A stretch of 36,165 nucleotides of DNA from Gammaproteobacteria bacterium. GTDB taxonomy: Bacteria > Pseudomonadota > Gammaproteobacteria > Ga0077536. Positions within the stretch are counted from its first letter, which is position 1. Each line of letters starts with the position of its first letter. The stretch is from the NCBI GenBank assembly GCA_023257255.1, contig JALRCR010000012.1, positions 1 through 36,165 on the forward strand, read 5' to 3'. The position numbers were made by a program, and so were the translations under genes. This document shows positions 5,320 to 23,600 of this stretch, one piece after another. The notes beneath the pieces were generated by a model. That model saw only the letters and a list, made by a program, of their open reading frames with translations, searched no databases and had not been told where the DNA came from.

Positions 5320-5519
5320 GCGGTCAGACTTTGCGGCTCGGCTAGCGGATTTCAGGGCCGCATTGTGGCATAGCTAAAGCGCCCGATGGGCGGGCCATGG
5401 GCGCGCTGAAGTTTGGGTCGGGCCGAGTCGCTATGGGTGTTAGGATTGCGACGCCCTCACCGGGCAGCCGGTCGACCGTCCGGTATCGAAAACAACAATT
5501 CAGGAACGAGCCGAGAGCA

Positions 5520-8500
5520 GTGGAGCAGTCTGACGCCCCGCAAGCGGGAGCTGAACGCCGAAGGTACGCACGCCTTCCGATCAATCTGGAAGCCGCCATT
5601 GCAGTCGCGGGGCGCGCGCGCGTGTCCTGCGCGGGCAAGGATTTTTGCGTGGCGGGCATGTTCATCCGCCTCGACGCCGCCGAACTGGCAAAGATCAGCC
5701 CCGAAGACCGCGCGGTGCTGTACTTCTCCCTGCCCAACACCCGCTCTGAACTCAGCCTCAACCTGCAGGTGTGCCGGGTTATTCCGGCCGGCATCGGGGT
5801 TTCTTTCGAGAATCCGCCGTTCTCGATCATTCGCATGCTGGAAAAGCTGGCCGGCGCCAAGGACGACGACGAAGAAACGTCCCTGTCCGAAACGCAGCGG
5901 CGTTTTGCGCCCGAATTCGGCCGCAGCTTCCCGGGGCTGCTGGAGCAAACGGAGCGCTTTGCCGCGTTTATGTCGCAGGAGTTTCTGCGACAGGTGAATG
6001 AGGCGCTGTTTCTGGCCACCCGCGATGCGGGCAGTAACGCGGAAGCCCGGTCAATACTGGACGCCCAGCTGAAAATAAAAGACCGCTCCGACCATCTTCG
6101 GCGGCGGGTGCCGGAGTTGCTCGGCCACGGGGTAGCCATTCTGGGCAATCCGCTCATGGTCCGGAAAAGCCCCGAGGCCGAAGCGGCGAGTGGCCTGTCG
6201 CTGATCGACAAGGATGAGTTCGAGCAATTCCTGTCGGTCTCAAGCGCAGTGGCGGAACTCGAAAAGGCGCTGCACGAACCGCTGGGCGAACTGAGCGCCC
6301 GATTTTCCACCATGGCGCGGCGGGTGATTGATGACAGCGGTAACCCGCTAGGACCCGCCACCCTCTGCAATATTGTTGCGGATACCCTGAAGTCCAGTCT
6401 GGGCGGCATCGTAATCAACGAAATCGTGTTTCGCGCCCTGCGCCGCCTGCTCGAAGCGCAACTGCCGCCGTTCTATCGGGAAATTAACGACTACCTGCAG
6501 GGGCAAGGCGTACAGCCGATGCAGGACCTCGAAAAGCCGCTGCCGGCCCTACGCCCGCAACCACGACCCCGTCGCGCGGAAACACGTGACCCGCCCACCG
6601 CACCGGCCGTGAGCGGCGTGGCGTATCCATCAGCAGGCGCCGGGCAGCCGCTGCCCGGGGGCGGCGCGCAGCCCGCGTTGCCGCTCGAGGCAGGGTCGGC
6701 GAGCGGCGCAGCGCCGGGGCAGCCGGCACCCTGGGTTCAATGGACGTCTCCGCTATCGGGGGATCAAGGCTTTCCGGTTCTGGACCCCGACGTTCAGGAC
6801 GCGCCCCCCGGCATCCCGCTGGGCGCACCGGTGCCGGGGTATCCCGTCTACGGCCCGGGCTATCGACCGATGCAGACCGCGCTGTCTTCGGCGCGCGCCC
6901 AGCTGAGTCTGCTGCGCCAGTTTCAGCGCGGCGGGCAAGCCGCGGCAGAGGCGCCGGAGGCAAGCTACCCGCTGGAGCGGATCGTCGAAGCCCTGGGCAT
7001 GCTCGCGGTGGAAGCGCCCGAGGGTGAAGCGCCGCCCTTGCTCAGTGCCCGCGCGGTCAGCGAACAGGTGGCGGCCAGTTTGCAGGCTAATGGCCTTGGC
7101 CCGATGGCGATCGCACCGGAGCAGCAGGACATCATCGAAGTGGTCGTCAGCCTGTTGGGCTCCCTGCTGCACGATCCCCGGCTGGCCGACGTGGCGAAAT
7201 CGAGCATCCGGCGCCTGCAGGGCGCGGCGCATCGGGCCGCGATCACCGATGAGCAGTTTTTCGAAGACACCTCGCATCCGGTGCGGCAACTGATTAACCG
7301 CGTCGCCGCCGTGCGTCCGGCGCACGATCTGGACGACGAGAATCTGGAAGCGCGAATGGCCTCGCTGGTCAGTGCCGCCGAGGAGCAACTGGTCAAGGAT
7401 CCGTCAGCGCTGCAGCCTGTGTTCCAGGAGCTCGACCAATTGCTGGAGCAACAGGCCCGGCAATACGACGACAGCGTGGCGATGGTCATTCAGAGCAGCA
7501 TCGAACAGCAAAAGCTGCTGAAGGAGCGGCGCGAGAAGGCCGGTCTGTCGCCGGTGGCTGCGCCTCGCCAGCCGCCGTCCGAAGAGTGGGAACGCTGGTT
7601 GCGCAAGGCGCGAGCCCTGAACGTGGGCGAACACTTCGTCATGAATCACGGCGCGGCGCAGGCCTACATGACGGCGCTGGTGTGGATTGGGGACGACTTC
7701 AACCCGTATGTCTTCGTGGACCGGCGGGGCCACAAGACCATGACGCTGACGCTGGAACAGGTCGCCATGAACCTGCGTCGCGAGGTGATGAAGGCCGTGC
7801 GCGAGGAGCCGGTCGCGCCGGTCGAGCGCGCGATGTCCGAAGTGGTCGAGCAATTCCACGATGAAATCGTCGCCGGTGCGGCGCGCGATGAACTCACCGG
7901 CCTGCTGACGCGCAAGGCGTTTCTCGCCCATCTGGACCGCAAGCTGCCTGTGACCGATGAACTCGCCGCGCAGGCCGTAATCTGCTTTCTTGCGATGAAT
8001 AACCTGAAGCAGATTAACGACGCCTATGGGCTGGATGCGGGCGACGAAGCCCTGCGGGGCTGGGCGCAACACATCACGGCGCACTGCGCTCAAAAACCGG
8101 TCACCGTTGCCCGAATCAGCGGTGGTGAATTGGGCCTGTTCTGGGAAAGCGGCGGGATGGATGCGGCACTGCCCGAGGTGCAGAGCCTGCTGGAAGGCTA
8201 CTTCGCGCTACCGAGCGGTAAGGCCGAGACCACGATCGCTGTGCGTTGCGTGGCGGGGCTGGCGGCGTTGGATAGCAGCATGCTGCGCCCGGAGCAGGTG
8301 CTGGAGGCCGCCGTCAGGGCCTGTAACGAGGCCCGCAGCCAGGGCGACAACGCCATCGTCGTGGCCGGCGCCGACCAGCGGCAGCAGGAGCAACTGAAAC
8401 AGGTCGCCAGCTACGTCAAGAAATCGGTCGAGCGCAATCGGCTGGTGCTGTTGCTGCAGGAAGCCCAGGCCGTGCGCGCCGACCGGCCGTCGCTGGCGCT

Positions 8501-9131
8501 GCTGCAGGCCAGTGCCGAAGACCGTAAAGGCAAGCTGGTGCCGCCGGTACTGTTTGGTGAAGCGGCCGGCACTACGGCGTACGGTTGGGACATTGATCTG
8601 TGGAATCTCCGGCAAACCTTACGCTGGCTGACCGAGCACGGGCCGGACGGCGAGCGCTTTGGGCAACTGGTCATTTCGATTTCACGGGTATCACTGCTGC
8701 GCGAGAACCTCGCCAGCGCGGTGCTGGAACTGCTCATGGCGACCGAGATCCCGCCCGCGCGGCTGTGTTTTTCCATCACCGACCGCGATGCGGTGGGCAA
8801 TCTGGAGCAAACCGCCGAGTTCATTAATACCCTGCGCGCGTTCGGTTGCCGTTTCATGCTGGATGAATTCGGCGGCGGGCAGGGCGACTACGCGCACGTG
8901 CGTGAACTGGCGGTGGACTACGTCTGTCTGCAGCGTGCAGTTCTGGAGGAAGCCCGGCACAATCCCAAGGACTACGCCATGGCCAAGTCGGTCAACGAAC
9001 TCGCGCACTTCATGGGCAAGCTGACTCTGGCCCGCTTGCCCGGCAACGAAGACGTTGATGATTGGATCAAGGATCTTGGCCTCGATTTCGTCATCGACCA
9101 GTCGCGCATGATGCGCCTGAAAATACGCTGA
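5520..9131 (+). CDS. PilZ-DUF1631-GGDEF-EAL multidomain protein (degenerate GGDEF and EAL)
   Basis: The protein has about 1203 residues and no membrane segment. Residues 12-110 are a PilZ domain: RRYAR gives the RxxxR motif (14-18), and DFCVAG (41-46) stands for [D/N]xSxxG with Cys for Ser. Residues ~115-330 and ~480-770 match DUF1631, split by a Pro/Gly/Ala-rich linker. Residues ~788-955 are GGDEF-like, but the site reads SGGEL (867-871), losing a metal ligand. Residues ~960-1203 are EAL-like with the EAL glutamate gone, LDEFGGG (near 1114) for DDFGTG, and no KID lysine, so neither cyclase nor phosphodiesterase activity is expected. I infer a c-di-GMP receptor or scaffold. The GTG at 5520 places PilZ at the N-terminus; ATG 5397 or 5433 in the same frame would add a basic leader without similarity. 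A Ser/Thr kinase gene follows after 3 bases. Confidence 0.88.
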   Translation: MEQSDAPQAGAERRRYARLPINLEAAIAVAGRARVSCAGKDFCVAGMFIRLDAAELAKISPEDRAVLYFSLPNTRSELSLNLQVCRVIPAGIGVSFENPPFSIIRMLEKLAGAKDDDEETSLSETQRRFAPEFGRSFPGLLEQTERFAAFMSQEFLRQVNEALFLATRDAGSNAEARSILDAQLKIKDRSDHLRRRVPELLGHGVAILGNPLMVRKSPEAEAASGLSLIDKDEFEQFLSVSSAVAELEKALHEPLGELSARFSTMARRVIDDSGNPLGPATLCNIVADTLKSSLGGIVINEIVFRALRRLLEAQLPPFYREINDYLQGQGVQPMQDLEKPLPALRPQPRPRRAETRDPPTAPAVSGVAYPSAGAGQPLPGGGAQPALPLEAGSASGAAPGQPAPWVQWTSPLSGDQGFPVLDPDVQDAPPGIPLGAPVPGYPVYGPGYRPMQTALSSARAQLSLLRQFQRGGQAAAEAPEASYPLERIVEALGMLAVEAPEGEAPPLLSARAVSEQVAASLQANGLGPMAIAPEQQDIIEVVVSLLGSLLHDPRLADVAKSSIRRLQGAAHRAAITDEQFFEDTSHPVRQLINRVAAVRPAHDLDDENLEARMASLVSAAEEQLVKDPSALQPVFQELDQLLEQQARQYDDSVAMVIQSSIEQQKLLKERREKAGLSPVAAPRQPPSEEWERWLRKARALNVGEHFVMNHGAAQAYMTALVWIGDDFNPYVFVDRRGHKTMTLTLEQVAMNLRREVMKAVREEPVAPVERAMSEVVEQFHDEIVAGAARDELTGLLTRKAFLAHLDRKLPVTDELAAQAVICFLAMNNLKQINDAYGLDAGDEALRGWAQHITAHCAQKPVTVARISGGELGLFWESGGMDAALPEVQSLLEGYFALPSGKAETTIAVRCVAGLAALDSSMLRPEQVLEAAVRACNEARSQGDNAIVVAGADQRQQEQLKQVASYVKKSVERNRLVLLLQEAQAVRADRPSLALLQASAEDRKGKLVPPVLFGEAAGTTAYGWDIDLWNLRQTLRWLTEHGPDGERFGQLVISISRVSLLRENLASAVLELLMATEIPPARLCFSITDRDAVGNLEQTAEFINTLRAFGCRFMLDEFGGGQGDYAHVRELAVDYVCLQRAVLEEARHNPKDYAMAKSVNELAHFMGKLTLARLPGNEDVDDWIKDLGLDFVIDQSRMMRLKIR

Positions 9132-9134
9132 ACT

Positions 9135-10400
9135 ATGAGTGATATTCCCGCAAAAATTGGCAAGTACGACGTCATCAGCGTATTGGGGCGCGGCGCGATG
9201 GGGGTGGTTTATCGCGGCTATGACGCCTACGTAGACCGGCCGGTTGCGATCAAGCTGGCCAGCCAGGTCGATGCCGAAGGCGAAGAAATGGCGCGCCGTC
9301 TGTTCGTCAACGAGGCGCGTTCGGCCGGCCGACTCGACCATCCCAACGTGCTGAAAGTGTATGAGGCAGGCGAAGAAAACGGCCGGCCCTACATGGTCAT
9401 GGAGTACATCGAAGGCGGCGATACGCTGCGTAATCACTGCGCAAGCGAGCGCATGCTGCCGGTAGAACAGGTGCTGCGGATCATTCGCCAGACGGCCGAT
9501 GCGCTGGGTTATGCGCATCGGTTGGGGGTGCTGCACCGGGACATCAAGCCCGCCAACATCATGCTGACCCAGAGTGGCGTGGCGAAGCTTGGCGATTTTG
9601 GCATCGCGCGCCGCGACGGCGCCGACCAGACCCAGATCGTGGGCTGGTTCGGCTCCCCGCTTTACATGTCGCCCGAACAGGCACGCGACATGGAAATTAC
9701 CCTGCAATCCGATCTCTTTTCGCTGGGCGCGGTGTTCTACGAATTACTTTCCGGCGCACCCCCGTTCGCCGCCAAAGGGCTGACCGGACTGATCCAGAAA
9801 GTCTGTTTTGAAGAGCCGGCAGTGATCGCGGACGTGCCGGACGGGCTGTGGCAGATCGTCAAAAAGCTCCTCGAAAAAGACCTCAAGCGCCGCTACCAGA
9901 GCGGTGAAGAGGTGGTGCGCGATATCGACCTGCTGACTTCCGGCAGCCGTTCGCTGGAAGTCACCCTGAATGACGAGCAGAAACTGGATACGCTGGCCGG
10001 CCTTAGCTTCTTTCAGGACTTTACGCGCGGCGAGCTGAAGGAAGTGGTGAAGGTGGCCGGCTGGCAGCGGTGCGCGGCGGGCGAAGTCATTTTCAACGAG
10101 GGCGCCAAGGGCCGCTCGTTCTATGTGCTGGTCGATGGCATGTTGGCCGCAGCGGTCAACGGGGTGCGGATTGCCGATTTCCGGCAGGGCGATTGCGTCG
10201 GGGAGATGGACTACCTGTCTGAAGGCGTGCGCAGCGCCAAAGTGACGGCAGACACCGACTGCACCCTGCTCGGGATCGATCGCGATTTCAAGGAATGGGC
10301 CTCCTTGCCCTGTCAGCTGCGGCTGAACCGCACGTTTCAGCGCGTGCTGATCGAGCGCCTGCGCGCCACCACCCGCGAACTCGCGCGCGCGCTCCGCTAG
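9135..10400 (+). CDS. Ser/Thr protein kinase with C-terminal cyclic-nucleotide-binding domain
   Basis: This soluble 421-residue protein is a Hanks-type kinase joined to a CAP-like sensor domain. The kinase (about residues 9-265) has all key residues: glycine loop GRGAMGVVYRG (18-28), K40 in VAIK, E60 in the C helix, HRDIKPAN with catalytic D136, DFG D154, and GSPLYMSPEQA in the activation segment. The cNMP-binding fold (about 290-400) keeps the phosphate-binding cassette GEM...RSA (E357, R366, S367), as in proteins that really bind cAMP or cGMP. No transmembrane or PASTA segment is seen. The ATG lies 3 bases after the upstream TGA with no Shine-Dalgarno of its own, so translation is probably coupled and the two proteins likely act together. 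Substrates and ligand are unknown. Confidence 0.93.
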   Translation: MSDIPAKIGKYDVISVLGRGAMGVVYRGYDAYVDRPVAIKLASQVDAEGEEMARRLFVNEARSAGRLDHPNVLKVYEAGEENGRPYMVMEYIEGGDTLRNHCASERMLPVEQVLRIIRQTADALGYAHRLGVLHRDIKPANIMLTQSGVAKLGDFGIARRDGADQTQIVGWFGSPLYMSPEQARDMEITLQSDLFSLGAVFYELLSGAPPFAAKGLTGLIQKVCFEEPAVIADVPDGLWQIVKKLLEKDLKRRYQSGEEVVRDIDLLTSGSRSLEVTLNDEQKLDTLAGLSFFQDFTRGELKEVVKVAGWQRCAAGEVIFNEGAKGRSFYVLVDGMLAAAVNGVRIADFRQGDCVGEMDYLSEGVRSAKVTADTDCTLLGIDRDFKEWASLPCQLRLNRTFQRVLIERLRATTRELARALR

Positions 10401-10416
10401 CCGGGCATCAGCCCGG
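10401..10416. repeat. Inverted repeat at the kinase/dgkA convergent junction
   Basis: The 16 bases CCGGGC-ATCA-GCCCGG form a perfect 6-bp GC hairpin directly after the kinase stop and covering the dgkA stop. There is no T tract on either side, so it is not a classic intrinsic terminator, but it could slow or protect the 3' ends of both convergent transcripts. Confidence 0.4.
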
Positions 10417-10782
10417 GCCGAAGCGCAGCCACGCCAGCGTCGCCCACACGGCGGCCATCAGCGCGAGGCTGAGCATCACGGCCGCAGAGCCCAGATCCTT
10501 CGCGCGCGCGGAGAGTTCGTGGGCTTCCAGCCCGACCCGGTCGGTGACTGCTTCCACCGCCGAATTCAGTAACTCGACTATCAGCACCAGCACCCCTGAG
10601 CCCAGCAGCAGCAGGTAGTCGCGCGGGTTGCGCCCCAGCCAGAGGGCCGCGGGGATCAGGGCCAGGACCAGCAGCAGTTCCTGACGAAAAGCCGCCTCAT
10701 AGCGCCATGCCGCACGCAGGCCGGCCCATGAATAGCCACAGGCCTTGAGGATACGGGTCAGGCCTTTGACATCACTGGCCAT
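10408..10782 (-). CDS. dgkA: Diacylglycerol kinase
   Basis: This small integral membrane enzyme phosphorylates diacylglycerol to phosphatidic acid with ATP, recycling the lipid released during transfer of phosphoglycerol head groups. It has 124 residues, the standard size of the bacterial trimeric DgkA. An N-terminal amphipathic part (GLRAAWRYEAAFRQE) is followed by three membrane helices; the hallmark active-site segment ELLNSAVEAVTDR and the SARAKDLGSAAVM segment are both present. The ATG at 10782 is preceded by GGAG eight bases upstream. A TATACT hexamer on the minus strand at 10843-10848 could be its -10 box, though the -35 is poor. It is divergent from lexA, and dgkA next to lexA is also seen in E. 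coli. Confidence 0.96.
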   Translation of the reverse strand: MASDVKGLTRILKACGYSWAGLRAAWRYEAAFRQELLLVLALIPAALWLGRNPRDYLLLLGSGVLVLIVELLNSAVEAVTDRVGLEAHELSARAKDLGSAAVMLSLALMAAVWATLAWLRFGPG

Positions 10783-10898
10783 AGGGCAGCACTCCGGAAT
10801 TGAGAAAGCAGGGCAGGGTCTGCGCGTTCAGGCGCAGGCCGGAGTATAGACAGCCCGCAGGACACCCGACGTGACTCGCCGCCGGACAAATACCGGGC

Positions 10899-10926
10899 TT
10901 GCCGCACGCCGCTTGCTGGCTATAAT
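10899..10926 (+). promoter_or_regulatory. lexA promoter (-35/-10)
   Basis: TTGCCG at 10899-10904 and a perfect TATAAT at 10921-10926 are separated by 16 bases. The predicted start of transcription falls inside the LexA box just downstream, the usual layout for autorepressed lexA. Confidence 0.8.
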
Positions 10927-10931
10927 CACAG

Positions 10932-10947
10932 CTGTATAAAAAAACAG
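10932..10947 (+). promoter_or_regulatory. LexA binding site (SOS box)
   Basis: CTGT, eight A/T bases (ATAAAAAA), then ACAG make a perfect match to the CTGT-N8-ACAG operator of gammaproteobacterial LexA. It starts 5 bases after the -10 box and 30 bases before the lexA ATG, so LexA bound here would block its own transcription and that of imuA-imuB. I found only this one box in the intergenic region. Confidence 0.93.
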
Positions 10948-10961
10948 TATCGAGGCCCCCA

Positions 10962-11579
10962 ATGCCTGAAGAACTGACTGCCCGCCAGCTGCAAGTCCTG
11001 AATTTCATCCGCAAGGCCGTCGAGGAAAACGGCCTGCCGCCTACCCGTAGCGAAATTGCCGAGGCGCTGGGATTTCGCTCGGCCAACGCTGCCGAAGAAC
11101 ATCTGCGCGCCCTGGCCCGCAAGGGCGCCATCGAACTGCGGCCGGGCGCTTCACGCGGGATCCGGCTGCCAGATCTCAACCGGGGTCAGGTGCTGGGCCT
11201 GCCGATCGTGGGCCGGGTGGCCGCCGGGCAGCCCATTCTGGCCAGCGAGCACATCGAGGAGCACCTGCAACTTGACCCCGCCGCCTTCCGGCCGCGGGCG
11301 GACTATCTGCTGCGCGTACAGGGGATGAGCATGCGGGATGCCGGCATCCTGCCGGACGACCTGCTGGTTGTGCACACCACGGCCACCGCTGAAAACGGCC
11401 AGATCGTGGTCGCCAGACTGGAAGACGAAGTCACCGTTAAACGTTTTCGGCGGCGCGGGCAGCAGGTCTCGCTCTTGCCGGAAAACGACGAATTCGCCCC
11501 CATCGAAGTTGACCTTGGCAGCCGCAGTCTGGTCATTGAAGGGCTGGTAGTCGGGGTTTTGCGGTCGCGTGTGCGATGA
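10962..11579 (+). CDS. lexA: SOS repressor LexA
   Basis: LexA represses SOS genes until RecA filaments trigger self-cleavage. The 205 residues comprise an N-terminal winged helix (residues 1-70, [20 protein letters not shown], with recognition helix around [12 protein letters not shown]) and a C-terminal S24 peptidase domain. The Ala-Gly cleavage bond is A88-G89 (RVAAGQP), and the catalytic dyad is S123 (GMSMRDAGI) and K160 (VTVKRF); all three are offset by +4 from E. coli. A GAGG ribosome site lies 6 bases before the ATG. The stop overlaps the imuA start (ATGA), so repressor and mutagenesis genes form one operon under the SOS box upstream. The sequence looks like a normal cleavable LexA and may be the only copy. 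Confidence 0.98.
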
Positions 11580-12238
11580 CCCTCGAAGAACTCATGCGCC
11601 GCGCCAGACTCTGGCGCGCTGGCGAGGTGTCGGCTGAAGGCGGCCTGTCGACCGGTTTCGACGCGCTCGATGCCATGTTGCCCGGCGGAGGCTGGCCCCA
11701 TCCGGGGCTGATCGAAATTCTTGCCAGCCGCCCGGGGATCGGTGCCCTGCGACTGTTGTTGCCAGCGCTGGCCGCGCTGGGGCGGCGCCAGCAGTGGTTG
11801 ATCTGGGTGGCCCCGCCCTATCTGCCCAATGCACCGGCCATGGAAGCCGCCGGCCTCGAGCTGTCGCGGGTGCTGGTGATTGATGTGGACGCCGCCTCGG
11901 CTGCAGGCGCTGCCGCGCGGCGACCGACCCGACGCCAGCAGACGGCGGCCGAGCGCGAGTTCTGGGCCTTTGAGCAGGCGCTGCGCTTCATGGATGCCGG
12001 TGCCGCGCTGTATTGGCCCGGCACGCTAGCACCGCTGGCCCTGCGGCGATTGCAACTGGCCTGTGAGGCCGGCGGCAGTCTGGGCGTGCTGTTTCGTTCG
12101 CCCGATTGCGCCGGGCAGGCCTCACCGGCGGCGCTGCGCCTGTTGCTAAGTCCGGTCGCCGGCAGCACCGAGGTGACCGTGCAGGTACTCAAATGCCGGG
12201 GGAGTCTGCAGACCCGGGCGTGCAGGCTCGCGCTCTGA
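11576..12238 (+). CDS. imuA: Translesion synthesis accessory protein ImuA
   Basis: ImuA is a RecA-like accessory factor of the ImuA-ImuB-DnaE2 mutasome, which copies damaged DNA during the SOS response. The 220 residues match the family: an N-terminal [21 protein letters not shown] segment split around a glycine run, then [20 protein letters not shown] in the place of the RecA P-loop, lacking the Walker lysine as is usual for ImuA, and [19 protein letters not shown] late strand [16 protein letters not shown] is also typical. It overlaps lexA by four bases and is followed by imuB after 90 bases. Nothing suggests it is broken. SulA-like annotations of this family are historical and do not apply. 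Confidence 0.9.
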
Positions 12239-12328
12239 GCCTCTCGCGACGCAGGCTTCAAGTCTCACGCCGCCCCCGACCCAACGTCATCGGTTTGGCG
12301 TCATCCAGTTCAGTCAGGAATCAAACGC

Positions 12329-13909
12329 ATGAAACATGAATGGTCAATTGTCGCTCCAGGTTCGCTGCCTCCGGCGGCATCTGTGCCGCGTCTGGGCGCG
12401 GTAGCAAGCACCGCGGCGCCGGCGCCGGCAGCCCAGCGTTTGTGGTTGGCCGTGCACCTGCCGCGCTTCACCCTGGATATGGCGCTGCGTGGCAATACCA
12501 CCCGTAAAGCCTGTGTGCTGGTGGAAGGAGAGGGCCGGCAGCAGCGCATCACCCAGGCCAATGCCGAGGCCACTCGCCTGGGCATGCGGACCGGATTGCC
12601 GCTGAGCGCGGCGCATGCGCTGGGCGAGGTCTTGGCTTTCACCCGCGTGCCCGCGGTCGAACAGCAGGCCTTGCAGCAGCTGTGCGCCTGGGCCTATCAG
12701 TTCACGCCCGTACTGGCACCGCTGCCGCCCGACGGCCTGATCATGGAAGTGCGCGGGAGTCTGGGGCTGTTCGGCGGCTTGCATGGCTTGCTGTCCCGCC
12801 TGCGTCGCGAATTGCGCCAACTGGGCTTTCAGTCCGTGGCTTTTGGTACCGCGCCCACGCCAACGGCCGCCCATTGGCTGGCGCGCGCCCGTCAGACTGC
12901 GCCGGTCGAGTCGCTGGCCGCTTTGCCGGCCGCGCTGAGTCAGGTGCCCTTGGACGTGATGGGCCTGCCGGCCCGTCTGTTACAGGATTTCTGCGGGATT
13001 GGCATCCGCACCATCGGCGAGTGCCTGCGTCTGCCGCGCGACAGCCTGGCGCGCCGGTTTACCCCGGCGCTGTTGCTGACCCTCGACCGGGCATTGGGGC
13101 GTCAGCCCGATCCGGTGCCGGCTTTTGAGCTCCCGGCCTGTTTTGCCAGCCGCATCGATCTGCTGTGGGAAATCCATCACGCTCAGGGTTTGGGGTTGGC
13201 CATGGAGCGCCTGCTGCACGAATTGACCGGCGTGCTGCGTGCCCAGGCTTCCGCCATCCGTCAGATCGACTGGCAACTGCACCATGCAGATGGCTCGGTA
13301 TCCCGCCATTCAATCAATCTTCTGCAGCAGAGCCGCGACTTGCCGCACCTCTTCCGGCTTTCCCGCGAGTATTTCCTGCGCCAGCAACTCGGCTCGCCGG
13401 TGCGCGGCATCAGTCTGGAAGCCGCCCGCTTCGAGCGCCTGCCGGTGGTCACCGAGGGCGATCTTTTCAGCCCGGCCAAGGCCAGTGCAGAGACCGAATC
13501 CTGGCCGCAGTTTGTGGAGCGCTTGCGGGCAAGACTGGGCGATGAGGCCCTGTGCGGCCTCAGCACCCGGGCTGACCATCGGCCGGAGCGAGCCAGTTGT
13601 GCCACGGTGGTGCGTCAGGCACAGCGGGCGCGGCCGGTCGGCACGCCGACAGGCTCCCGGCGCTGGCCCGATCGCCCCCTGTGGTTAACCCGCACCCCGG
13701 TTCCCCTGAGCACCGAGGACGGTCGTCCCAACTTTGATGGCCCCTTGGAGCTGACCGCCGAGCGCGAGCGCATCCAGACCGGTTGGTGGGATGGCGCAGA
13801 GGTGGCGCGCGACTATTTCATCGCCCGTAACCAGCACGGCAGCCGGCTGTGGATCTTCCGCGAGCTGGCCGGGGCGCGCGGCTGGTATTTGCACGGCATT
13901 TTTGAGTGA
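12329..13909 (+). CDS. imuB: Y-family polymerase-like mutasome protein ImuB
   Basis: ImuB is a Y-family DNA polymerase relative without polymerase activity that links the mutasome to the sliding clamp. The 526 residues begin with a 35-residue low-complexity Ala/Pro leader, then LWLAVHLPRFTLDMAL where active Y polymerases have the metal-binding DxDxFF; the second acidic motif is replaced by EVRGSLGLFGG. Palm, finger and little-finger regions follow, and the C-terminal part (from about 440) carries the family segment RPLWLTRTPVPL and ends GARGWYLHGIFE. AGGA lies 9 bases before the ATG. No dnaE2 gene follows; the next gene encodes a diguanylate cyclase. I found no perfect clamp-binding pentapeptide by eye. 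Confidence 0.92.
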   Translation: MKHEWSIVAPGSLPPAASVPRLGAVASTAAPAPAAQRLWLAVHLPRFTLDMALRGNTTRKACVLVEGEGRQQRITQANAEATRLGMRTGLPLSAAHALGEVLAFTRVPAVEQQALQQLCAWAYQFTPVLAPLPPDGLIMEVRGSLGLFGGLHGLLSRLRRELRQLGFQSVAFGTAPTPTAAHWLARARQTAPVESLAALPAALSQVPLDVMGLPARLLQDFCGIGIRTIGECLRLPRDSLARRFTPALLLTLDRALGRQPDPVPAFELPACFASRIDLLWEIHHAQGLGLAMERLLHELTGVLRAQASAIRQIDWQLHHADGSVSRHSINLLQQSRDLPHLFRLSREYFLRQQLGSPVRGISLEAARFERLPVVTEGDLFSPAKASAETESWPQFVERLRARLGDEALCGLSTRADHRPERASCATVVRQAQRARPVGTPTGSRRWPDRPLWLTRTPVPLSTEDGRPNFDGPLELTAERERIQTGWWDGAEVARDYFIARNQHGSRLWIFRELAGARGWYLHGIFE

Positions 13910-13930
13910 GGTCCGGTCGCTGCTTGTCGG

Positions 13931-13948
13931 GCAGACGGTCCGGTCTGC
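13931..13948. repeat. Inverted repeat downstream of imuB
   Basis: GCAGAC-GGTCCG-GTCTGC forms a 6-bp stem with a 6-base loop, 21 bases after the imuB stop. The 9-mer GGTCCGGTC occurs twice here, at 13910-13918 and 13937-13945, the second copy within the hairpin. There is no T tract. It may mark the 3' end of the lexA-imuAB transcript. Confidence 0.4.
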
Positions 13949-14032
13949 ACACCTCGACGCCATCGCCTGGTACACGCAGGCCTCAAGTTGGCGGGCCCGT
14001 GGACGCTAGTACACGTGAGTGGCCCAAGACCA

Positions 14033-15544
14033 ATGACAGCAGACAACGACAACCCATCCGCCAATGGCTCATCCGACGCCCAGATTCGCTTACGCGAAGT
14101 GCAGGGCGAGCTTGAGCGCAAGCGCGCCGAGTGGCAGGCCTCCGAACGGGTCCTGACCCGCGCCTTGCTGCGGATTGTCGAAGTGCTGGGTCCGGTGGAT
14201 CAGGAACTGGGCCGCGAACTGAAAGTTCTGCGCGACAACCTGCTCAGCAACGCCACCGTCAGCCACTTCTCGGGGCTCATCAACCGTTTGAGCGAGCGCA
14301 GCGTCACTATCCTGCGGCGCCGGCTGAAAATTACCCGTCCGGTCACCGAACCCGTTGAACAACTGATGGACCTGCTGGCCCAGTCCCCCCGGCTGGTCAG
14401 CGGGATCAATCTGCTACGCCGGCGTCTGCATGCTGGCGAAAGTGCCGACACCATTGTCGCCGCGATTGCCGACCTGTTTGTCGACGCCGAACAGGCCGCC
14501 CGGTCAGAGTTGCCGGCAGACCCGCAAAGCCTGTTTCTTAATCTGCTCGACCAGCTGAGCCTGCCCCCCGAATTTGAAGCCCGCCGAGTCACCCTGCGGA
14601 TGGCGTTGAGCGCGCGCGAAGTAGACGACCCGGCCCAAGATCTGAGCGAACTGCTGCGTGAAGCCCACACCTATCTGGGGCGTGATTCGCGCCTGCTTTC
14701 GGCCTTTCTGAAGCGCTCCGCGCAGTACATGAGCGTGATCGATACCCAGCTCAAGGTGGCGCTTGACCAGTCGCGGCTGGCGGCCAGCGACACCGACGCC
14801 TTGACCCGCAACATCTCGGTGGGGCTGGAAGAACTAGACGCAAGTTTTCAGGGCGACACCGTCGAGATGCAGGTCCAACTCAAAGTTGAGGAAAACCTGC
14901 GCACCGTGCGCGATGCGGTCGGCAAGTTTCTGAATGTGCAGGACCAGCAGCGGCAGGATTACGAAACCCGCATTGCCGAACTCACCACCCAGATCACGGG
15001 TTTTGAACGCGAATCCGCGCGGCTACGCGAGAGCCTGGCGGCAGAACATGCCCGCGCCCACCGCGATCCCCTGACCGATAGCCCCAATCGCCTGGCCTAC
15101 GAAGAGCGCGGCGAACTGGAAATCATGCGCGCGCGGCGTGCGCGTACACCGCTGTGTCTGGCGGTGCTGGATCTGGACCGTTTCAAACTGGTCAACGACC
15201 GTTTTGGCCACCGGGTAGGCGACCGCCTGTTGCGTTCGGTGTCGGCCATCGCCCAGCAGCGGGTGCGCGGCACGGATCTGTTTGCCCGCTACGGCGGCGA
15301 AGAATTTGTCGGCTTGTTTCCGGAGACGACGCTGGAAGCGGCGCAAAACCTGTGCGAAGACCTCCGAGCGCGTATCGAAGCCGCCGCCTTCCAGTTTCGC
15401 GGCGAGTTTGTGCCCATGACGGTTTCGATCGGTTTGGCCGCGCTCCGCCCCGACGATAATCTGGATACCCTGTTCGAGCGCGCGGACGCCGCGCTCTATC
15501 GGGCCAAGGAAATCGGACGCAACTGTCTGGTTGTCGACGACTAG
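14033..15544 (+). CDS. Diguanylate cyclase (GGDEF) with N-terminal helical regulatory domain
   Basis: The C-terminal GGDEF domain (about residues 345-503) should make c-di-GMP from two GTP. The active site is GGEEF at 421-425, and RGTD at 412-415 sits exactly five residues before it, the RxxD inhibitory site for product feedback. Upstream features such as DSPNRLAYEER and LDLDRFKLVNDRFGH are intact. The first ~340 residues are helical and charged, with a likely coiled coil just before the cyclase (about 285-345). No membrane or phospho-receiver domain is seen, so it is cytoplasmic. The general plan recalls DgcP-type cyclases of pseudomonads, but that is only an impression. ATG 14033 was preferred over a TTG 15 codons upstream. 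The signal it senses is unknown. Confidence 0.92.
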   Translation: MTADNDNPSANGSSDAQIRLREVQGELERKRAEWQASERVLTRALLRIVEVLGPVDQELGRELKVLRDNLLSNATVSHFSGLINRLSERSVTILRRRLKITRPVTEPVEQLMDLLAQSPRLVSGINLLRRRLHAGESADTIVAAIADLFVDAEQAARSELPADPQSLFLNLLDQLSLPPEFEARRVTLRMALSAREVDDPAQDLSELLREAHTYLGRDSRLLSAFLKRSAQYMSVIDTQLKVALDQSRLAASDTDALTRNISVGLEELDASFQGDTVEMQVQLKVEENLRTVRDAVGKFLNVQDQQRQDYETRIAELTTQITGFERESARLRESLAAEHARAHRDPLTDSPNRLAYEERGELEIMRARRARTPLCLAVLDLDRFKLVNDRFGHRVGDRLLRSVSAIAQQRVRGTDLFARYGGEEFVGLFPETTLEAAQNLCEDLRARIEAAAFQFRGEFVPMTVSIGLAALRPDDNLDTLFERADAALYRAKEIGRNCLVVDD

Positions 15545-18578: not shown

Positions 18579-20693
18579 CTATTCGGTCGGTGCCGGCGAC
18601 AGCCGATCGTCGCCGCGCACCACGAACTGCGTACGGTCTATGACCACGCCGGCCGCATTGACCAGCGTTAGTTGATGCCGCCCGGGTCGTGGGGCCCACG
18701 AGCGACCCGCCGCCAGCGGCTTGCCGTTCAGCTGCCACGACAGCCCGGCGCGCGGCGGACTCATCGTCGGGAAAATTCGCTGATGCGCCGGCGGAATGTC
18801 CGGATCGAGCACCAGAATGCTGCCGTTGGCCGGTGCAACGATGCGCGCGCTGGTATCGTCGACCGGCGCGGGCCGCACTTCCGCGGTTTCAGTGCCGCCA
18901 AGAAACCACTCCTCGCGCGGTGGCTCCAGCGCGTCGGCAAAGCGTACCGCTCGCCGCTCGAGTCCCGCCGGCGGCAGCGGCGGGCGGCCGGGCTCGCTGG
19001 CGTGCAGGGCTTGCATGACTTCCGCCCAGATCGGCGCCGCCCCGCTTAGTCCCGAGACTTCCCACATCGGCGTGCCGTCGAAATTGCCCACCCACACCCC
19101 GACCGTGTAGCGCGAGGTATAGCCGATGCACCAGTTGTCCCGCATTTCCTTGCTGGTGCCGGTTTTGACCGCCGCCCAGAACGGCAGGGCCAAGGGACTT
19201 TCCAGCCCGAAGGTGGCGCTGCGACTGGCGCGGTCGGCTAGCAGATCGCCCACGATGAAACTCGCCGCGGGCTGCAGCGCGGGCGTGGCCTGCAGCGGCT
19301 CCTCGGGGCGCACGCGGAGCGGGGCGTACACGCCGCCGCTCGCGAGCGTGCGGTAGGCGGCGACCAGTTCCCACAGGCTGACCTCCGGCGAGCCCAGCGC
19401 CAGCGCTTCGCCGTAATACTCGCCGTCGTGTGCGAGCGCAAAGCCCAGCTGGCGCAAATGGCCGACGAAGCGCTCCGGGTTGAGCAGCATCAGCGTGCGC
19501 ACCGCCGGCACGTTCAGCGAGCCGGCAAGCGCGCTGCGCAGGCTGACCCGGCCACGAAACGCTTCGCTGTAGTTGCGCGGCTCATAGGCGCCGCCGGCTT
19601 TCACCACGCTGAGCGGACTGTCTTCGAGGATCGACGCGGCGTTGAGTCGGCGGGTTTCGATGGCGAGTTCGTACAAGAAGGGCTTGAGGGTCGAACCCGC
19701 CTGCCGGCGGGCGCGCACACCGTCGACAAAACGGGCCGAACTCAAAGGCGCGCCGTTGCCGACGTAAGCCAGCACCTCGGCGCTTGCGTTGTCGACCACC
19801 AGCACCGCGCCGTCGCTGACGTGGCGCGGCGCGAGTTCGCGTAACTGCCGTTGCAGCGCCTCACGGGCAACGGCCTGCAGCCGACCGTCCAGCGTGCTGG
19901 TCACCGTTTCGCCGCCGGTGCGCAGCAGTCGCGCGGCCAGCTGCGGGGCCTCGCTCGGGCTCGCTTCGACCGTGCCTTGCGACAGATCCCGGGCGCGCGC
20001 TTGCAGCGCGCTGCAGGCCACCGGCGTCGGCAGCCGCACCGCCAGCCGACAGGCGCGCGCGCTCAGCGCGGCGGGTGAAGCATTCGGTTGGCCAAGCATC
20101 GCGCTGAGGAGCAGGGCGTCGGTGCGGTCAAGCGCGGCGGGCGCCTTGCCGAACAGGCGGTGGCTGGCGGCACCGATGCCCGCCAGCTCGCCGCGATAGC
20201 TGGCGAGATTGAGATAGGCCTCGAGAATTTCGGGCTTCGACCAGGCGCCTGCCAGCGCGCGTCCAGCCTGCGCCTGCCGCCATTTTTGCCACAGCTTGCG
20301 GCCGCCCCGACGCGCCCGCAGCGTCGGGTCGAGGAGGGCGGCAAGCTGCATATCGATCGTGCTGGCGCCGCGCGGATAACCCCGCAGCGTGTCGCGCAGG
20401 GCCGCCGCGATTGCCCACCAGTCGACGCCGGCGTGCTGCCAGAAGCGCTGGTCTTCGACGGTGATGACGGTGTCTAGCAGCGGTCGCGACAGCGCCGACA
20501 GCGGCACCCAGTCGCTGCGTCTTACCTCGGCGTTCTGCCGGCGACTGTCCAGCACCACGCCGTGGCGGTCCAGCAGCTGCGCTTCGCTGGCCGGATGCGC
20601 GGCGCGCACCTCGCCCGGCGAGGGCAGGGCCGCGGCGGTGGCCGGCGCCGACACCACCAGCGCCAGCAGCAGACTGCGCGCCCGGCGCCTCAC
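18579..20693 (-). CDS. pbpC: Penicillin-binding protein 1C
   Basis: This bifunctional peptidoglycan synthase has 704 residues. An N-terminal hydrophobic anchor (SLLLALVVSAPATAAA) exposes it to the periplasm. The GT51 transglycosylase domain (about 45-210) has E80 in VEDQRFWQHAG, ASTIDMQLA, and NLASYRGELAGIGAA. The transpeptidase domain (about 285-560) has S334 and K337 (GSTLKP), GSLN, and KTGTSKEMRDN with K510. The last ~90 residues are the PBP1C C-terminal beta domain (IVAPANGSILVLDPDIPP). It begins with GTG at 20693, overlapping the macroglobulin stop by four bases. Genes for PBP1C and bacterial macroglobulin are commonly neighbours; they are thought to repair wall after macroglobulin traps invading proteases. 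Confidence 0.96.
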   Translation of the reverse strand: MRRRARSLLLALVVSAPATAAALPSPGEVRAAHPASEAQLLDRHGVVLDSRRQNAEVRRSDWVPLSALSRPLLDTVITVEDQRFWQHAGVDWWAIAAALRDTLRGYPRGASTIDMQLAALLDPTLRARRGGRKLWQKWRQAQAGRALAGAWSKPEILEAYLNLASYRGELAGIGAASHRLFGKAPAALDRTDALLLSAMLGQPNASPAALSARACRLAVRLPTPVACSALQARARDLSQGTVEASPSEAPQLAARLLRTGGETVTSTLDGRLQAVAREALQRQLRELAPRHVSDGAVLVVDNASAEVLAYVGNGAPLSSARFVDGVRARRQAGSTLKPFLYELAIETRRLNAASILEDSPLSVVKAGGAYEPRNYSEAFRGRVSLRSALAGSLNVPAVRTLMLLNPERFVGHLRQLGFALAHDGEYYGEALALGSPEVSLWELVAAYRTLASGGVYAPLRVRPEEPLQATPALQPAASFIVGDLLADRASRSATFGLESPLALPFWAAVKTGTSKEMRDNWCIGYTSRYTVGVWVGNFDGTPMWEVSGLSGAAPIWAEVMQALHASEPGRPPLPPAGLERRAVRFADALEPPREEWFLGGTETAEVRPAPVDDTSARIVAPANGSILVLDPDIPPAHQRIFPTMSPPRAGLSWQLNGKPLAAGRSWAPRPGRHQLTLVNAAGVVIDRTQFVVRGDDRLSPAPTE

Positions 20694-23600
20694 GGCAGAA
20701 CGGTCAGGGGCTCGTTGGGGCTCGCACCGAAGACGGCCGGGGCATACATGGCGTCGACCCGTGTCGGCGGCAGCGCGAAGCTGCCCGCATTGTTGAGTCG
20801 CACCCGATAGCGCAGCACCGAACGCCCCGCCGGCAGGTATTCAAGGTACGCGCGGTAGCCGTCCGCGCCACGCTCCGTAAAGCTCGGCGTGAGGCTGGCG
20901 CCGCTGTCGTCCTGACCCAGTGTGGCGCTGTCGCCGCCGAGGCCGCTGCCCAGCGCGACCGCGCCGGCCGGCAGGGGATCGCTGACGGCCACCCATGGCA
21001 TCTCGCTCTTGGCGTCAATTTCGAGCACCACGCTGTAAATGTCGCCGCGATGCCAGGCCTCGGGCGTTTGCCGGCTGATGGCTTCCACGCGGCGGGTAAT
21101 CCGGTAGCCGCTCGCCACCGTGGCGCTCAGCGGGACGGCCGCGCGGCTTTCCAGCGAGGCCCAGGGTGCACCGCTACCGCTGTGCTGCAGACGCAAGACG
21201 GCGGGCCCGGTCGGCCAAGGCAAGGTGTGCGCGATGGCGGGCGTTGGCCACGCTTGCTCCCGTTGCTGCCCGGCCAGACTCAGACTGGTGCGGCCGACAA
21301 CCGGCGTTTTTTCAAAGTTTTCCGCGAATTTCCGCAGTGCCAGCACGCCTACGGCATTGGCCGCCGTGGTGTCCCAGTGCCCCGCCTGCTGGCGGGCAAG
21401 TGCGCCCTGCAACAGCCGCGGCGCGTCGCTGGCCCAGTCGGGCAGGGCCGCGATCAGACCCAACAGGCGGTTATGCGTCAGGTCTCCCGACACCATCAGG
21501 CTGGGCAGCTGGTCCCCCGGCGCGCTTGTCAGCATCAGCTGATTACCCTGTGGCGCGAGGCGCGCGCGCAGTTCGTCCAGCGTGGCCTTGAGCCGCGCTG
21601 GCTGGCCCGGCAGGTCCGGGCTACGCAGCAGGATGTCCAGCCAGTCGACCACGGCGCTGCTCGGCCACAGCCGGGGTGTTTCGTCGATGCTGTCCAGCCA
21701 GCCGGGATTGAGCCCTTCGGGTTGGCGGGCCAGCGCCGCAAGGATCGCGATCTTGCGCAGGCTGAGGTCGGCGGTGGGCAGTGGCGAACGCGGCTGGTAG
21801 CGGCCTTCCAGCACGCCGATCAGGCCTTCCCGCAGCGGCATGCGCTGCAGCGCTGGAATCTCGCGCCCGGCGTCCGCGGCGAGCGACAGCAAATAGGCCG
21901 ACAGCACGTCGCTGCCGGCGCCCTGACCCGGGAAATAACGCACCAGACCGTGTTCGTCGAGATAGCCCGGCAGTTCGCTCATCAGCGCGTCCCACTCGGT
22001 GTCGTCGCCAAGCCCGACGGCCTTCGAGACGCGCTGCTCGAGACAGCGGAAGGGATATTGCCGGAACCAGGTTTCAACGCCCGCCGGCACCTGCGCCAGC
22101 GACGCCTGCAGACTGATTCGCAGCCCGCCGCCGGGCAAGGCACCGACCGGTGCAGCGACCGGCAGGGTCTGCTCGCCCTGCACTTGCAGGAGGCTGGCCT
22201 GGAGGGTGCTGAGCGGAATCGCCGGCAGCACCGTCTGTTTCACGCTAAGCGCATCCTGAGCCGCGGCGCCCGCATCGGCTGTCACCGTCCAGCGCAAGCC
22301 GCTGGCATCCGGTGCCTCGTAGTCCCAACTCACCTCCTGCGCGGCGCCCGGCGCGAGGCTGACCTGTTGGGCGGGCAGCGGGTTGGCGCTGGTCTCGCCA
22401 GCGTCCTGGGTGACGCTGACCTGCGCGGCAAGCGTCGCGCTCAGCGCCTTCTCGCTCGCGTTGCGCAGCGTGAAGCTCGCGCGGTAGCGGTCGCCCGCGC
22501 GGACCATCGTCGGCAGGCCGGCGTGCAGCATCAGCGGCTGGGTGCTGCGGATGCTCGCGCTGCCGGTGCCGAAGTGGCCGGTGCCGGCGGTGGCCACGGC
22601 GACCAGCCGGAAGCTGGTCAGGGAGTCGTTCAAGGGCACTTCGATCCGCGCCCGGCCCTGAGCGTCCAGCGCGAGCTTCGGCGCCCACAGCAACAGCGTG
22701 TCGAACATGCGTCGCGTGCCGCTGCCGCTGCCGCCACCACCGCCAGGCGCCACCGCCTTGCGTCCGTAATGCCGCTTGCCGACGACCTGCATTTGCGCGG
22801 TCGCGGTCTGCACTTCAATACCGCGCCGGGTGAGCATGCTTTCCAGCACCTGCCAGCTCGCGTTGGGGCGGAGTTCCAGCAGGCCTTCGTCGACCGCCGC
22901 CAGCGCCACTTCGCTGTGCGGCGGCAGCGCTTTGCCGTCGGCCCGGCGGACTGCGATCTCGACCGCGGCCCGTTGCCCCGGCTGGTAGGTCTCGCGCTCG
23001 GGCGTCACGCTTACCTTGAGCGCATGCGCCGCCCAGCCGACGCGCAGTTCGGTCATGCCGAGCTTGAAGGCCGGCCGACCCAGATCGACCAGCGCGGTCG
23101 GTTGAATCGCTCGCTCACGACCCCGCACCGCCAGCACCGAGACAAACACGTTCGGAGCGCCCTCGGGCGGAATCGGCACCTCGACCACCGGCGCCTTGCC
23201 GCTCAGGTCCACCACCTGTTGCCACAGCACGCCTTCGCGCTCCAGCGAGACCAGCGCGGTGGCCGCGCGAAACGGCATGCGCACCTGCAGGCGCGCGGTT
23301 TCGCCGGGGGCATATTCACGGCGCTCCGGCACCAGCGACATGCGGTCGTCGTTGCCCTGGGCGAACCACCAGTCCTGATCGTTCGCCACCCAGACGTCGC
23401 GATTCACCACGCTCGGATTGCCAGCGGCATCCAGCGTCTGCGCGCGCAGGATGAGGTTGCCGGCGATCTCGGTGCTGGTGGTGCAGACCAGTTCGCCGCG
23501 GGCGTCGGTACGGCCGCGACAGGCCTGCCCCAGCGGCTTCACTTCGCTGCGGTTCTCCCAGGCATAGAAGCCGCCCAGCAGTCTTTTACGGCTCGAATAG

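Follow-up and report, generated by a model that had tools for sequence, protein, structure and literature searches.

Upstream of a gene for a Hanks-type Ser/Thr kinase with a C-terminal cyclic-nucleotide-binding domain (CNBD), an uncultured gammaproteobacterium carries a gene for a large receptor-type protein that combines PilZ, DUF1631, GGDEF and EAL domains. Do the two proteins act together and, if so, which ligands might they read? The window (the whole 36,165-nucleotide stretch that we analyzed) belongs to a metagenome-type assembly of 3.9 Mb in 549 contigs. Its named relatives are gammaproteobacteria that have not been cultured, many of them of freshwater or groundwater origin (some of their database records are titled Klebsiella pneumoniae, evidently a mislabel), and the host is an uncultured freshwater or groundwater bacterium.

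The large protein (5520..9131, + strand; 1203 amino acids from a GTG start) was delimited by Pfam matches, homologs and codon-position bias, and the kinase (9135..10400, + strand; 421 amino acids) by Pfam matches, codon bias and an AlphaFold model with a pLDDT of 82. The domains named in a preliminary description of the locus, PilZ, DUF1631 in two stretches, GGDEF and EAL in the first ORF and Pkinase and cNMP_binding in the second, all scored above the Pfam gathering cut-offs. The 3-base spacing that it reported was also borne out: the TGA stop at 9129-9131 is followed by ACT and the kinase ATG at 9135 (junction 9129..9134, + strand), and several relatives have ATGA-type overlaps here. Compared with a 95% identical relative (G010), mismatches at the first, second and third codon positions numbered 16/14/76 over 5520-9128 and 5/1/45 over the kinase ORF; third-position mismatches dominate, and both ORFs are under purifying selection. 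The 200 nucleotides before the large ORF (5320-5519) gave 4/4/2, with no third-position bias. Because codon bias is absent before 5520, we favored the GTG start over an upstream ATG at 5397. A promoter scan returned no signal above chance.

The large protein begins with a PilZ domain (5553..5840, + strand; Pfam and alignments) with an RxxxR motif (RRRYAR) and a second motif, DFCVAG, that reads DxCxxG where the receptor motif is [DN]xSxxG. The RxxxR motif and the Asp of DFC were invariant in all 13 order members aligned; in order member L089 the second motif is degraded. Kinase-less relatives whose EAL domain is intact commonly have DxCxxG too, and Myxococcus PixB, whose PilZ domains do not have the conserved Ser, still binds c-di-GMP (PMC8316039). 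In one relative (G035, L137:8953-9399 and 9424-12969), PilZ is a separate ORF just upstream of DUF1631-GGDEF-EAL, which may reflect a natural split or a frameshift introduced in assembly. DUF1631 follows at 5946..7523 (+ strand), where two all-helical halves flank a disordered linker rich in Pro and Gly (about 6525-6860, a low-pLDDT segment); it scored 238.5 bits against its profile (PF07793; cut-off 33.7). A weak NCBIfam match, PacR, spans just part of DUF1631, and our literature search for PacR found no paper describing it.

The C-terminal half consists of a GGDEF domain (7878..8351, + strand) and an EAL domain (8421..9092, + strand), identified by Pfam and alignment, and both had been described as dead. 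The alignments bore this out. The GGDEF domain has SGGEL (8118-8132) in place of the GG[DE]EF A-site of diguanylate cyclases, and its metal-site Asp residues are replaced. In the EAL domain, the phosphodiesterase signature (ExL, N, ETE, DD, K, AExVE and QG) is lost: the Glu of ExL, the Asn, ETE, the second Asp of DD, the Lys, AExVE and QG all differ. Neither domain retains the residues for ligand contact. PilZ, with its Ser replaced by Cys, is the sole domain of the protein to keep a c-di-GMP signature. Binding of c-di-GMP by the EAL half, suggested earlier, is unlikely because the ligand-contacting residues are replaced. An AlphaFold model of the protein (low global confidence, pTM 0.43) showed a PilZ-like beta domain, two helical DUF1631 halves with a disordered linker between them, and a long helix preceding the GGDEF-EAL pair. 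Among the matches listed in a fold search with this model, there were solely GGDEF-EAL structures and none for the DUF1631 fold; for the C-terminal half, the closest relatives of solved structure include PA0861 (RbdA), the nearest for the GGDEF-EAL pair, together with FimX, MorA and LapD.

Other families also have long PilZ-DUF1631-GGDEF-EAL proteins that lack the kinase partner. In our alignment the full EAL phosphodiesterase signature was present in 15 of 19 kinase-less proteins versus 1 of 21 kinase-linked ones (five further order sequences were placed in a separate alignment). This is a pattern without the force of statistical proof, since it amounts to one or a few evolutionary events in which an active EAL domain became a dead one. 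The sole kinase-linked protein with an intact set is that of G168 (family f134). The large-protein tree has long branches and requires the linked label to change twice. Since catalytic sets are lost readily but seldom regained, the linked lineage most likely stems from a phosphodiesterase turned pseudoenzyme; judged by its residues, the large protein of the window looks like a former phosphodiesterase. Loss is also seen in a tandem duplicate of the kinase-less protein (G151, L103:6968-10726 and 10870-14877), of whose two copies only one retains the EAL signature.

The kinase domain itself (9165..9899, + strand; Pfam, alignments and fold matches to mycobacterial PknA/PknB) has intact catalytic residues, as had been claimed. 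It has the G-loop, the VAIK Lys (Lys40), HRDxKPxN, DFG, an APE-like motif and an activation-loop Thr166; Lys40, HRD, Asn141 and DFG are kept in all 30 DUF1631-linked kinases, with SPE replacing APE. Standalone kinase-CNBD proteins (e.g., G000:C546) have the same layout and 41-44% identity to the window kinase but are not beside DUF1631, and most have DFS where the window kinase has DFG. At G000:C546 (L073:3095-4384 and 6118-7410), two such paralogs flank a glucose-6-phosphate-isomerase-like gene, and similar close pairs occur in many relatives. A literature search for bacterial CNBD kinases found no characterized member.

We then surveyed how well the gene pair is conserved. Among 36 genomes of the order, counting as kinase orthologs matches with E < 1e-160 or copies split at a contig break, 25 have the large protein, 24 the kinase and 23 both; in all 23 order genomes with unbroken contigs the two genes are directly adjacent on one strand. 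In the exceptions (G011, G015 and G028), a contig end truncates the gene or adjoins it; most of the 10 genomes that lack both genes are small or incomplete. Outside the order, the pair was found in 8 genomes from 5 more families (274 class genomes sampled), where the top-scoring kinases (G063, G101, G167, G168, G232, G279 and G280) and the more diverged one of G234 all lie just 3' of a long DUF1631 protein. In a tree of 67 kinases, the 30 linked ones fall on one side of a branch with an SH-aLRT of 99, a single change of state, and the 37 standalone relatives, including paralogs from genomes that also carry a linked kinase, fall outside; the family trees came from quick searches and have long branches. 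The flanking genes are glnS, dgkA, lexA and imuA in the order, and minor pilins (f67), glycerate kinase (f133) or a HerA-type ATPase (f134) elsewhere. In G101 (f67; L119:2950-5223), the run of minor-pilin-type genes beside the pair hints at a link to type IV pili or secretion. Shared function is the best explanation, because the pair stays together while its surroundings change. The suspected adjacency is thus old and conserved, in six families and with the linked kinases forming one clade, which gives good support to the proposal that the two proteins act together; we consider their partnership very likely. Outside the class, a survey of 398 phylum genomes found no linked member at a threshold that linked members passed, and the module therefore appears confined and rare.

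The CNBD (10068..10286, + strand; Pfam and alignment) had been credited with an intact phosphate-binding cassette. The cassette, GEMDYLSEGVRSA (10200..10238, + strand; gapless alignment to PKG cassettes), does have the Gly and the canonical Glu and Arg (Arg366), but its fourth residue, which has to be small to accommodate a cyclic phosphate and is Ala or Gly in cAMP and cGMP binders, is Asp359 (10209-10211). The earlier description thus needs correcting. Linked kinases of the order share the pattern GE-x-[DE]-YL...R, with Glu357 and Arg366 invariant and position 4 acidic in 21 of 22 (19 Glu, 2 Asp); the exception, with Gly, is G021, the first to branch in the order. Position 4 is acidic in none of the 8 linked kinases outside the order (Gly, Ala or Thr) and in none of the 37 standalone kinases (Gly, Ala or Ser), and a regex survey of other CNBDs of close relatives found no acidic residue there except in one apparently spurious match. 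The substitution is that of trypanosomatid PKA, which has Glu at the site equivalent to PKA Ala202 and binds nucleosides, not cAMP; structures show this Glu contacting the hydroxyls of the ribose and clashing with the cyclic phosphate (PMC10959531). Gating of the window kinase by a cyclic nucleotide (cNMP) is doubtful on this analogy. Of the pairing first described, a c-di-GMP-type receptor with a cNMP-gated Hanks kinase, the dead GGDEF-EAL receptor and the Hanks kinase stand as read from sequence, and the gating is what the conserved acidic residue speaks against. The retained Arg may still allow weak cNMP binding.

Both types of messenger are plausibly made in the cell, given that class III cyclases and an active-looking diguanylate cyclase are both encoded in the genome. 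The latter (13988-15544, + strand), with RYGGEEF and an RxxD I-site, lies 3.6 kb downstream of the pair, beyond lexA-imuA-imuB-type genes, and several relatives (L122, L123, L124 and L134) likewise have GGDEF proteins downstream of the pair. A CNBD-EAL protein resembling Bdellovibrio Bd1971 (G000:C501, L195:553-1791, - strand) and similar CNBD and EAL matches in one frame of G000:C22 were found as well; the CNBD-EAL protein suggests further cNMP/c-di-GMP cross-talk in this organism. Farther along the window (18579-26536, - strand), an alpha-2-macroglobulin-like protein adjoins a penicillin-binding protein 1C-type gene, a common bacterial pairing.

We propose that the locus encodes a Hanks kinase module controlled by a c-di-GMP receptor and built from a pseudo-phosphodiesterase and a repurposed CNBD, a reading of the sequences to which we give about an even chance. 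The ancestor of the large protein would be a c-di-GMP phosphodiesterase with the PilZ-DUF1631-GGDEF-EAL layout, whose catalytic activity disappeared in the kinase-linked lineage; the protein would now serve as receptor and scaffold, with PilZ as the likely c-di-GMP sensor and with DUF1631 and the pseudo-GGDEF-EAL pair offering assembly surfaces. It would bind the co-translated kinase and set its activity, so that Ser/Thr phosphorylation becomes the readout of c-di-GMP. Four elements of this scheme we infer: the physical interaction, c-di-GMP binding by PilZ, the direction of control and the ligand of the CNBD. The CNBD pocket, as changed in the order, is probably unresponsive to cAMP or cGMP at normal concentrations; it may sense another ligand, for which a nucleoside is the precedent, or act as a docking or dimerization domain. 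In a more specific and unlikely version, the CNBD, with its convergent acidic residue of the trypanosome PKA type, would sense a purine nucleoside or other non-cyclic ligand and integrate it with c-di-GMP through the co-translated PilZ-DUF1631 pseudo-phosphodiesterase, giving a two-ligand kinase switch in which neither ligand is used in the textbook way.

How do other accounts of the pair compare? The large protein could be mainly the substrate of the kinase, its phosphorylated linker or DUF1631 region switching a c-di-GMP effector while the kinase integrates a cNMP or another ligand. Kinase and target genes are often neighbors, the large protein has a long disordered linker, and the kinase has its full set of catalytic residues; however, the linker varies in length and sequence and the alignment consensus has no obvious conserved Ser/Thr site. 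The sequence itself does not distinguish a substrate from a regulator. We regard this account as rather unlikely, and a role as regulator or scaffold as at least as likely as one as substrate.

A kinase truly gated by a cNMP, one that tolerates the cassette Asp or Glu and is switched on by cAMP or cGMP made by the class III cyclases, would likewise integrate cNMP with c-di-GMP, and the cyclases, the cNMP-EAL protein and the invariance of Glu357 and Arg366 are all consistent with it. So is a trypanosome PKA mutant in which Glu was kept and Arg restored, the same residue combination as in the order's cassettes: it retained its nucleoside response and was still activated by cIMP, though only at 24 uM (PMC10959531). 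Against such gating stand the clash of the equivalent Glu with the cyclic phosphate and the confinement of the acidic residue to the order's linked kinases, none of the 45 other family kinases having it, and we consider it quite unlikely. Finally, the genes might be neighbors by inheritance only, an operon held by linkage inertia whose products work in separate pathways. The neighborhood from glnS to lexA-imuA is kept in several order genomes, so conservation within the order is by itself weak evidence of a shared role. However, the pair is intact across six families with changing flanks, and its kinases form one clade apart from standalone paralogs in the same genomes, which makes mere inheritance very unlikely.

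The known outputs of c-di-GMP are chiefly direct effectors and histidine kinases. If our preferred reading is true, the messenger would gain a new output route, a Hanks kinase under the control of a c-di-GMP receptor. The evolutionary series also allows tests of a general question, the conversion of a signal-degrading enzyme into a receptor after it gains a partner, since both the intermediate (G168, linked and with an EAL domain still active in appearance) and the end state (the order of the window protein) exist. For ligand switching by CNBDs in organisms other than eukaryotes, the altered cassette offers a sharp prediction. DUF1631 itself occurs in about a third of the class genomes sampled (92 of 274), yet our literature search found almost nothing on it and no characterized member.

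The components of the module are of known kinds, and their combination, PilZ-DUF1631-GGDEF-EAL with kinase-CNBD, is without a description in the open literature searched, in line with the earlier remark that no such pairing had been characterized. Its nearest precedents are Pkn1, Bd1971, LapD/FimX and trypanosome PKA. Myxococcus xanthus Pkn1 also couples a Hanks kinase to PilZ but does so in one polypeptide, with a PilZ domain predicted not to bind c-di-GMP, and is described only as kinase plus PilZ, with no DUF1631, GGDEF, EAL or CNBD (PMC8316039). Bdellovibrio Bd1971, a cNMP-controlled EAL phosphodiesterase, likewise joins a CNBD to an EAL signaling part (PMC6717892); unlike the module, it is one polypeptide with a cAMP-binding sensor domain, an active EAL and no kinase. 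LapD and FimX have a tandem GGDEF-EAL without catalysis that likely serves as receptor or scaffold, as in the large protein, whose EAL, in contrast, has also lost the ligand-contacting residues; here the c-di-GMP motif lies in the N-terminal PilZ, with DUF1631 in between and a Ser/Thr kinase as partner. The trypanosomatid PKA regulatory subunit shares with the window kinase a kinase-controlling CNBD and the acidic residue at the PKA Ala202 position (PMC10959531), but it is eukaryotic and a separate subunit and has lost the cassette Arg that the window kinase keeps, and we infer that the acidic site common to the two is convergent.
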